A stretch of DNA of 64,000 bases from Laccaria trichodermophora (lineage: Eukaryota; Basidiomycota; Agaricomycetes; Agaricales; Hydnangiaceae), in the NCBI GenBank assembly GCA_018417955.1, contig JACTVC010000046.1, positions 163,421 to 227,420 on the forward strand, given 5' to 3'. A model generated the notes under the pieces. It saw only the letters and a program-made list of their open reading frames with translations. It had not been told where the DNA came from and did no database searches. The position numbers were made by a program, and so were the translations under genes. The number at the start of each line of letters is the position of its first letter. Position 1 is the first letter of the stretch. This document shows positions 5,294 to 62,452 of the stretch, in pieces.

Positions 5294-7548
5294 TTACGCA
5301 GCAGCCATCTCAATATCTCTGGGGCCTTCGAGGATGCGATTTTTTGCTTGAGAGAAAGCAGAATGTTGTTTCTTGTAGTCATGATTGATGGTGACGAGTA
5401 GATTCAGAATAAGTTCCGCATGTCGCTCGCGCTCTTCGTCTGAGATGCGATTCTGGAGCTCGATCTTGCCCAGCTCCTTGGGAAGTTCTTCCGAGTCTGG
5501 CGACCTGCCAGGGCCCAAAATGGGGGAGGCAATTGAGCGAAGACTTGGGAGGACATTCGTCTGTAGGCGAGGGGAGGAGTGGGTTGAGCTGGGAGTTGAT
5601 TCCCGTGACGACGACGGTGAGGGCGAACGATACATGCGATTCAAAGGAGGAAGCTTGTACTGAATATCCCCTGATGTCAAGAGAGGATAGAGTGGGCTCG
5701 GCCTTGATATCGAAGAAGAGGAGAGTTTCGCGGGAAAGCCTCGATGAGCAGGGAACGATACTTTGGGCTCTACGGGCTCTGGTCTGCTGGCTGCCGTCTG
5801 AACGGCACCAGGGTCGCTCTTCAAAGGTATGATAGGGCGCATGGCCTTGGACATGTATTCGGGCGGAGCGAGGTGAGCAACTGGAGGAGCCCCCCTGGAA
5901 GTGCGCAGGTAGTCAAAGGTATCCGACATTTGGAGAGGGACTTGTGGAGGGGTAGTTGTAGCGGGGGTAGATACATTGGATTGCGGAGAGCCGTTGTCGA
6001 GAGGTGGGGTGGGATGGTGGTAATGCTGATTGGCGAAAGAGTTTGGCGACGATGCGTACTTGGCCGAGGGGCGGCGACCATGCTGAGGACCGTAATCGCT
6101 GGTTGGAGAGTAGTTGATGGAGGAATCGTTCATAGACGAGTACATGTTGGTGTAGTGTCCACCTTGAACAGATGGGTGGCTGGATCTGGAACTATGATAA
6201 GTGCTTGGGGCGAATTGCTGGGAAGAGCTGTTCGAGTAGTGATCATAATTCGTAGGCACCGGAAGGCCAGGCATCCCGGCAAGACCAAGTTGACTCAAGT
6301 TGGCAGCGTCGAAATAAGCGTCTGTGGGGAGGTTTGGACTGGGCACTGGCTGATGCCGAGTCCCACCAGAAACATCGCGGCCGAGGGTGACGAGGAACTC
6401 GTTTACGGCTGCGAGCTCCTCTGGGGTGCGGATGTCCAAGGAGACGGAGCGCGGGTTGAAAGATGTGTTGTAGTTTCCACCCGAGTTGCCATGCTGGTGG
6501 TAGACGAGATTATTCAGACGTTCTGCCATTCCTGCAAGGGACGGTTAGAATTTCACGACGAGCAGGGGCGGAGAGAAACTCACGCGGATCATAGGCAGGA
6601 TTGACACGTCTCTTTTTCATGTCCGTGAAAAAGTCATCGACGCTATAGTCGTGCGAACGCTTCGAGCCAATCGGTATTGATACATCTTCGGGTCTCAAAA
6701 CTTCCCAGGAGGGAAGAGATTGGTTATCCATGAACATGTCGTGTGGTGGATGACCATGAGCATGGGCAGAGGAGTGGCCTAATTCTGGAGAAGGTGTCGG
6801 TAAGAGACCAAAAGGAGATCCTGTTAGTAAAAGTTCAGCGCCAAGGCGATGGCCGGAGGGAGACGCAGAGACTAACCATCAGACTCGGACGAAGAGTGGG
6901 ACTTGGAGCGAGAGGCGGGCATTCTGTGAGGTTGGCTGCTGGAGGCGGGTTTAGATGACGATTTTACATCGGATGCACGAGTGGCAGATTCGCCGCGAAC
7001 GCGAGAAACGTAGGCGGGATCAACGACGGTGATGGCCTTGGAATGCTTGTGCTGTTGATGATGCTCCTCTGTGTGAATTTTCTCATGTTTCTTTAAATCC
7101 TGGGGACGCTTGAAAGACTTTTTGCAAATCTTATCGAGATTATGTGAGATTCAGGGTAACGGAGGGAAGGTAAAATCGACTAACTTCGCAAACGTGGGGC
7201 TTGAGCGGTGTATGGACTATCACAAAGGGTCAATATAGATGGGATGATAATAGAAAATAAAGCGAACGAACCCCTCAGATGACTAGTGATATGGTCGCGC
7301 TTTGCGCAGGATGTTCCGCAGTCTTTCCACTTGCAGGTAAGACAGAGATTGTTTGTGCTCTTTCTTCCGATGTGATCGTTACAGAGATGGTTATAGAGTG
7401 TTTCTGGGTCGACAAAGGACTGCGTACAGTCCTGCCAGAGACATCTATGAGACTCTGTGGGAGGCGGGGCTGAAGGGGTAGAATTGTTGGGGCTGTCTGG
7501 TGGAGCGGATGGGGAAGCTGAAGGGGAAGGGGGAAGAGTGGTGGGCAT
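5294..7548 (-). CDS. pacC: pH-response transcription factor PacC/Rim101
   Basis: Exons (complement) are inferred as 7272-7548, 7185-7216, 6877-7129, 6584-6820 and 5294-6531. Three C2H2 zinc fingers near the N-terminus match PacC/Rim101: CLWQDC with [24 protein letters not shown] with KRDHITSH, and [19 protein letters not shown]. The fingers are followed by SKAITVVDP, also typical of the family. A second conserved block later, [26 protein letters not shown], is also characteristic. In the family, ambient alkaline pH signals through the Pal/Rim pathway, causing proteolytic removal of the C-terminal part so that the finger region enters the nucleus and binds GCCARG. Met at 7548 is preferred over upstream in-frame codons because the protein then begins with a short Pro/Ser-rich lead. 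Nine GCCAAG sites lie just upstream, suggesting autoregulation. Confidence 0.93.
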
Positions 7549-7620
7549 TGTGAAGCGGGGCAAGAAATATGCGCAATCCGTAGTGATCATGTTTTAAACT
7601 GTTTTAAATCTCTAAAAAGT

Positions 7621-7759
7621 GCCAAGTATACCCAAGCTTGGCAAGGATAACAGCCGAGCTTGGCAAGAACAAACAGCCAAGCCGAAATGCCAAGCAATTT
7701 ACAAGCAAAGCCAAGCACAATAATGCCAAGCACAGTAAATGCCAAGACTATATGCCAAG
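7621..7759. promoter_or_regulatory. Cluster of nine PacC target hexamers (GCCAAG)
   Basis: GCCAAG occurs at 7621, 7676, 7689, 7710, 7725, 7741 and 7754 on the plus strand, and as CTTGGC at 7637 and 7659. Chance would give far less than one copy in 139 bp. The Aspergillus PacC consensus is GCCARG. The cluster is 73-211 bp upstream of the pacC start, with two TTTTAAA boxes between (about 7591-7608). It begins 13 bp beyond the stop codon of the neighbouring myosin light-chain gene. Confidence 0.85.
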
Positions 7760-7771
7760 CCATCACATGAC

Positions 7772-8432
7772 TCACTCCGCGCCGTTCACTCTTACAACCT
7801 TGACCCACTCCCGATAGTTAAAGTTTCCTTGTCTGTCCGTAAACGGTCCTTTGAGAAATCTGTCCATCTGATCACAGTCAATACTCCAAAATGTCACACT
7901 ACCCACACATTTCTTACCTCGTGCACCTCCATTCTATCCCCAACCTCACTCAACCACTTCTTCATCTCTTCGACTTTCACAACTCCCGTGTCGTCCTCGT
8001 CAAATGACTCGAACGCTTCTACAAGCTCCGCCTCCGTGTCAAATTCAAACAATCGCTCACTCATCATCGTCAGAAACATCGTAAAGTTGATCCCTCGTCC
8101 GTCCTCGGAAGAGGTTGACTTGTTGTGGCTTCCAGGTCGTGCACTTAGAAGATCATCCATCATCCTCTTCGAAGGCGAGATCCCTGACATGCGCATGAAA
8201 TCTCCACCATTCTCGGAACATACCCAGGCTCACCTAGACTCGTAAAGATCTCCTTCAAATCACACTCATTCACCCATCCGTCTTTGTCGTGGTCGATCAA
8301 CTGAAATGCTTCCTTGAACTGCTGTACCTGCGATGCTTGGAACAGCGAGAACACTCCAGATGGCTCGCGTCGTGCACGCGACTTTTGACCTTGTGTCGCC
8401 GTTGGTGAGAGGTAGTCTGGGTACTTTGACAT
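7772..8432 (-). CDS. Myosin II regulatory light chain (EF-hand protein)
   Basis: Exons (complement) are 8234-8432, 7918-8183 and 7772-7867, giving 186 residues, a normal length for this family. The N-terminus has a short basic stretch (KSRARREPSG) before FSLF and the first EF-hand, whose loop DHDKDGWVNECD is a full calcium-binding loop. A later hand, DEDDTGVVKVEE, is weaker. The C-terminus ends in a GNFNYREWVKV-type block typical of regulatory rather than essential light chains. It should bind the IQ region of type II myosin at the cytokinetic ring (compare fission yeast Rlc1). The last exon ends only 13 bp from the PacC-site cluster, so its 3' untranslated region must overlap the pacC upstream region. 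Confidence 0.85.
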
Positions 8433-62112: not shown

Positions 62113-62299
62113 AAAGGTCTTTGATCTTCTGCAATGTCTAACAACGCCTCAGCTCATACGACGATAAAGATTGAGGCTGTACCAACCAATCTTAATTTCC
62201 CATAGCGCCTGCCTTTATCCATTTTATTTGCTTTTGGGACTTTCGGGTATTGTTGTTGTGCTGTCTCGTGATGGTGGTGTAAGAAGATGAGAATGGTCC

Positions 62300-62452
62300 A
62301 AACGAGAACACGCAAATGAGAGCACGCAAACGAGAACACGCAAATGGGAACACACAAAACGAGAACACGCGAACGAGAACACGCAAACGAGAACACGCAA
62401 ACGAGAACACGCAAACGAGAACACGCAAACGAGAACACGCAAACGATAACGG
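62300..62452. repeat. 14-bp minisatellite (CGAGAACACGCAAA), ten copies
   Basis: Ten units of AAACGAGAACACGC lie head to tail from 62300 to 62440, one of 15 bp, with a partial eleventh (AAACGATAACGG). Six are exact; others differ by one to three bases. Because 14 is not a multiple of three, every frame is read through in turn, giving repetitive peptides on both strands that are not genes. Confidence 0.95.

Follow-up and report, generated by a model that had tools for sequence, protein, structure and literature searches.

What does a run of GCCAAG words in front of a pacC gene do, and is PacC itself likely to be the protein that reads it? GCCAAG is a short word that PacC is known to bind. The DNA analysed here, a stretch of 64,000 nucleotides from Laccaria trichodermophora (referred to simply as the window), had been described in an initial annotation as carrying nine copies of this word in 139 bp, seven on the plus strand and two on the minus strand, 73-211 bp upstream of the pacC start. 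Exact word positions located all nine.

7621..7759, 139 bp: array made up of nine GCCAAG hexamers, on the plus strand at 7621, 7676, 7689, 7710, 7725, 7741 and 7754, on the minus strand at 7637 and 7659

The distances are right for an ATG at 7548, and become 31 and 169 bp if the gene starts at the ATG at 7590. The gene that follows the array was delimited as follows.

5294..7548, minus strand: pacC/RIM101 orthologue, 678 aa, five exons (from homologues, Pfam and copy number)
7548-7272, 7216-7185, 7129-6877, 6820-6584 and 6531-5294, minus strand: pacC exons, picked by eye, with the join checked by script
7549..7590, minus strand: possible 14-codon N-terminal extension of PacC, from an in-frame ATG at 7590-7588 (frame check)

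Joining the exons yields a single open frame, 678 codons long, and each of the four introns has GT-AG boundaries. The product contains C2H2 fingers, which were compared with those of Aspergillus nidulans, and one YPLL motif, which we take to be a YPxL site of the PalA type. When homologues were searched, 1447 of 7982 scored candidates matched at E <= 0.001. In the best 120 of these, which were listed, the relatives are PacC-like proteins of Agaricomycetes, several of them called transcription factor PacC; the best-scoring named ones among the matches listed are from Crassisporium funariophilum (identity 66%) and Crucibulum laeve (68%), and Coprinopsis cinerea is also represented by a named PacC-like protein. 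Alignment of 18 homologues from the best 120 listed, with the window translation left out, showed a finger region that is nearly invariant, and YPLL, YPSL or YPTL was present in all 18. The gene downstream of the array is an orthologue of PacC/Rim101 that possesses a C2H2 DNA-binding region. In an unnamed homologue that is 97% identical (P0001), the predicted start shares about ten residues with the extension from the ATG at 7590. A search of the genome with the first 188 aa of PacC returned the two pacC exon stretches along with two weak zinc-finger matches (43% and 32% identity), and pacC is apparently single-copy, as this search showed no second clear copy. Single-protein queries of viral and prokaryote contig collections, which reach close relatives only, gave no pacC relatives, an outcome to be expected for a fungus.

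The space available to a promoter was defined by the neighbouring gene.

7772..8432, minus strand: myosin regulatory light chain (MRLC) gene with EF-hand, in tandem with pacC and upstream of it (Pfam EF-hand, structure matches)
7549..7771, minus strand: intergenic gap of 223 bp between the MRLC stop and the pacC ATG at 7548 (frames checked; 181 bp if the ATG is at 7590)

The best solved-structure matches of the MRLC product were myosin regulatory light chains (E 2.3e-31). Its stop codon lies at 7774-7772, and by inference the gap holds the 3' end of MRLC together with the pacC core promoter. The array occupies 139 of the 223 bp, leaving 12 bp between its last site and the MRLC stop codon. Such an arrangement would suit a roadblock or insulator, in which bound PacC halts read-through from MRLC into pacC, either besides an enhancer role or in place of it. 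A single gene model of Arthromyces matolae (P0093) joins a myosin light chain to PacC; the fusion is probably an annotation error, but it suggests that the same tight gene order exists there. Since no feature of the sequence demands a roadblock, we regard this reading as improbable.

It was also considered whether the array acts at the RNA level, as part of the MRLC 3' UTR, as a structure in the pacC 5' UTR, or through an upstream ORF that runs across it. The position of the MRLC stop codon implies that part of the array is probably transcribed. Moreover, an open frame of 58 codons on the minus strand (7587-7763) crosses the array and ends in a stop that shares bases with the alternative pacC ATG at 7590, as ATGA. 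This frame is hydrophobic and is probably a by-product of the CTTGGC words; its 58-aa product had no Pfam match. Against an RNA element, the fold z-score of the array was -0.58, with 59 of 200 shuffles folding as well, the window gave no Rfam match, and the sites are spread over all three frames and both strands. An RNA role of the array, which also contains no tRNA, was rejected on the fold score and the lack of an Rfam family, and we consider it the most remote of the readings discussed here.

The number of GCCAAG words was compared with their background. The window as a whole contains 42, against a shuffled mean of 32.7 (sd 5.8), and 7 of 100 shuffles reached 42. The window-wide total is thus unremarkable and within reach of chance; it is the clustering alone that stands out. 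The rest of the window holds 33 GCCAAG in 63.86 kb, with at most two per 150 bp whether or not GCCAGG is allowed. Elsewhere in the genome, a sample of 200 kb, taken as 20 stretches of 10 kb from five contigs (one on the window's own contig and three picked for BRO1 genes), contained 101 GCCAAG and never more than two per 139 bp. The background frequency away from the array is therefore about 0.5 per kb, and by comparison with these window and genome counts the GCCARG-type sites upstream of pacC exceed chance. By a Poisson model, at least nine GCCAAG would fall in any one 139-bp interval with a probability of about 1e-16, and somewhere in the genome with a probability of 6e-11, for an interval that was chosen post hoc and in a genome of the kind that holds satellites. 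When all hexamers of the window were counted without overlap, single-letter runs being excluded, the only ones to reach eight or nine per 139 bp were GCCAAG and the words of a minisatellite.

62299-62450: minisatellite, unit of 14 bp, CAAACGAGAACACG, 10.8 copies (Tandem Repeats Finder)

Because the 139 bp were picked post hoc and real genomes contain satellites, pattern scans of the genome (59.0 Mb, 77 contigs) give a fairer ranking than the Poisson estimate. Two of the four orientation classes were scanned, the classes ++- and +-+ lying outside, so that the ranking is partial. Three GCCAAG on the same strand with gaps of up to 25 gave 42 overlapping matches in the genome, against 4 for the reversed-pattern control. 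Most of these (33 of the 42) fell in five satellite places with a unit of 26-27 bp, on C19, C22, C30 and C31, 4 fell in the pacC array, and 5 were single. One inverted GCCAAG followed by two direct ones gave 15 matches, against 12 for the control. A dispersed repeat on C10, C15, C34 and C56 accounted for 9 of the 15 and the pacC array for 2; the other 4 were single, and one of these four places is also among the five single same-strand places. The matches outside satellite, repeat and array (5 vs 4 in the control, and 4 vs 12) are at chance level. The repeated places are these (all in G000).

C19:540499-541061: satellite stretch, 24 GCCAAG
C22:717499-717817: satellite stretch, 17 GCCAAG
C31:435892-436155: satellite stretch, 16 GCCAAG
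C19:425011-425214: satellite stretch, 13 GCCAAG
C30:12620-12917: satellite stretch, 16 GCCAAG (these five from stretches L046-L048, L061 and L062)
C10:852217, C15:209836, C34:740463 and C56:1740744: dispersed repeat, three or four GCCAAG per place, both inverted and direct (L057-L060)

The maximum number of GCCAAG per 139 bp was 9 in the pacC array, 5-6 in the satellite places, 3-4 in the dispersed repeat and 3-4 in the single places. The satellite at C19 is longer than the array, with 24 sites in 801 bp. By density, satellites included, pacC is the outstanding clustered GCCAAG place among the two orientation classes scanned; the claim of the initial annotation that this density is found nowhere else holds within that scope.

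Some of these places have features of their own. The units of the dispersed GCCAAG satellite are mostly 26-34 bp and also carry the palindromic ATACCATGGTAT; this satellite could sequester PacC, as a sink, or be part of a transposon. The closely similar short repeat on C10, C15, C34 and C56 is apparently a dispersed element. Two further places in G000, C4:579634 and C22:489076, are probably paralogous or repeated, because both contain the string GCCAACTTCGCCAAGCTGCCAAG. The surroundings of BRO1-domain and calpain matches were also looked at, roughly and in part (stretches L019, L025, L026, L031 and L036-L045), and no comparable array was seen near them. In stretch L026, two GCCAGG and two GCCAAG share 194 bp that lie upstream of the 5'-most BRO1 match, at a distance of about 2.2-2.4 kb.

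The composition and spacing of the array were then compared with those of background sites. All nine sites are GCCAAG and none is GCCAGG, against 33 and 29, respectively, in the rest of the window. The core is preceded by T in 7 of the 9 array sites vs 28 of 134 background sites (P 4e-4), and followed by C in 7 of 9 vs 26 of 134 (P 3e-4); the two occur together in 5 of 9 vs 5 of 134. The sites are evenly spaced, 13-22 bp apart; the sd is 3.1, whereas placing them at random between fixed ends gives 9.4 (P 8e-4). Helical phasing of the sites was sought at 10.5 bp, and none was found (R 0.36).

An array of this kind might be a decaying minisatellite, or a generic satellite, without function. The genome does hold a GCCAAG satellite, and Tandem Repeats Finder reported sub-arrays with periods of 15 and 22 inside the array (7632-7682 at 82% matches; 7701-7760 at 78-79%). 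Local duplication may have produced part of the array, namely some of its neighbouring units. In a satellite, however, the whole unit is alike between copies, spacers included, and here this applies in part to some adjacent units only. Flank identity was scored without gaps over nine columns on each side of the core, where short-spaced flanks partly overlap neighbouring cores. Over all pairs of the nine units the spacers and flanks were 27% identical vs 28% when shuffled, that is, at the random level, while the cores are identical. The control minisatellite at 62299-62450 retained 89% flank identity over nine copies. BLAST of the array against the genome, a search that skips very common words, returned no match but the array itself, and no 9-mer is common to the array and the three satellite stretches compared with it. 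The array does not behave like a satellite. The initial annotation had named a generic satellite as the finding that would overturn its proposal; spacer identity, BLAST, genome pattern scans and shared words all failed to show the array to be one. On these same four lines a satellite origin was rejected, and we consider it very unlikely.

Could the sites be read by a factor other than PacC, one that recognizes CCAAG or TTGGC? GCCAAG has only six bases and is open to other factors. Moreover, SltA of A. nidulans is reported to influence the expression of pacC, and HapX that of RIM101 in Cryptococcus neoformans (PMC4393102). The place of the array is, however, pacC itself, and its flank preference agrees with Rim101/PacC motifs: the flanks fit TGCCAAG, the motif given for Rim101 of Saccharomyces cerevisiae (PMC5349140), and mostly fit BGCCVAGV, that of PAC-3 of Neurospora crassa (PMC4996508). 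A different reader is an improbable explanation of the array.

We consider it probable that the array is a homotypic cluster of PacC sites by which the protein regulates its own gene, i.e. direct autoregulation. Three things expected of an autoregulated promoter are found here: a PacC orthologue downstream, GCCARG sites above chance, and sites that go beyond a generic repeat. Putative control by PacC of its own gene is proposed because of the site count relative to background, the flank preference, the even spacing, the unrelated spacers and the single clear pacC of the genome. In this mechanism PacC molecules would bind the nine sites; the joint loading of several of them would sharpen the pacC response to alkaline pH, and the net outcome would be a rise of the pacC transcript under alkaline conditions. 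The initial annotation had likewise proposed direct autoregulation. Its reading of the nine words as candidate PacC sites preceding a genuine pacC stands. The term feedback, which it also used, needs qualifying, since activation as well as repression has been published.

In other fungi the gene is already known to be self-regulated: autoregulation of pacC/RIM101 is reported for A. nidulans (PMC4832277), N. crassa (PMC4996508), Yarrowia lipolytica (PMC8265631) and C. neoformans (PMC4393102), and S. cerevisiae is named as an exception that lacks it (PMC4832277). In Trichoderma virens, as here, nine GCCARG are described upstream of pacC and the authors infer self-regulation, but in this ascomycete the nine extend over 1 kb, with GCCAAG and GCCAGG pooled (PMC3618310). 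The pac1 gene of T. reesei has multiple GCCARG upstream according to the text (PMC4446002). The pac-3 promoter of N. crassa is likewise described as having many PAC-3 motifs, which are bound there in vivo at alkaline pH, as seen by ChIP-PCR; unlike the present case, N. crassa is an ascomycete, and the text description contains no packed, evenly spaced array (PMC4996508). The initial annotation had contrasted the array with the few sites usual in ascomycete pacC promoters. Given nine sites in 1 kb in T. virens, 'multiple' in T. reesei and 'many' in N. crassa, that contrast is not general, and it is the density alone that is unusual.

The other known systems are similar in regulation rather than in described layout. 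Expression of pacC in A. nidulans depends on the product of the gene, as in our proposal; there, autoregulation is held to be negative via full-length PacC72, and the text description has no site array (PMC4832277). In C. neoformans, which is a basidiomycete, Rim101 is said to induce itself, with GCCAAG as the presumed site, but the site arrangement at RIM101 is absent from the description (PMC4393102, PMC2824755). YlRim101 of Y. lipolytica is said to stimulate its own transcription and has a GCCARG motif; this species, however, is an ascomycete yeast, for which site counts (3 to 7 copies) are given in the text for target genes only (PMC8265631). No packed, evenly spaced array like that of pacC was met in the text, figures and supplements apart, of the open-licence literature. 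What is new is the density of the array, its regularity and its rank in the genome.

The sign of the proposed autoregulation may be positive or negative. In the negative sub-case, full-length PacC on the array would block transcription at acid pH, and processing at alkaline pH would relieve the block. This sign is published for A. nidulans, where pacC is described as held repressed by PacC72 (PMC4832277). As its sites are 31-211 bp away from the two candidate start codons and the gap measures only 223 bp, the array probably overlaps the core promoter of pacC, and the transcription start as well. However, a later A. nidulans paper ties the autoregulation to the intermediate PacC53 (PMC11011638), PAC-3 of N. 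crassa is reported on its own promoter at alkaline pH only (PMC4996508), and the self-inducing Rim101 of C. neoformans is that of a basidiomycete (PMC4393102). Neutral or alkaline induction of PacC in Ganoderma is reported second-hand (PMC10132060). The closeness of the array to the start codon would suit occlusion and activation alike. Judged together, activation by processed PacC, with about an even chance, appears somewhat likelier than derepression by loss of full-length PacC, which is doubtful but has a real share, the rest going to a mixed outcome or to neither.

A more far-reaching version of direct autoregulation would turn the gap into a compact, cooperative pH switch. Most of its 223 bp would be coated by as many as nine PacC molecules, which would make pacC output nearly all-or-none and would also block read-through from MRLC, so that one array would serve as both enhancer and insulator. 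We regard such a switch as unlikely. If it were true, no other PacC target in the genome would be as strongly clustered as the array. It may be noted that the sign of pacC autoregulation, positive or negative, varies among the fungi studied. Nine identical cores in a 223-bp gap make a short, self-contained array that is easily turned into a reporter construct, with which the effects of site number and spacing, and also the sign, could be addressed in a mushroom.
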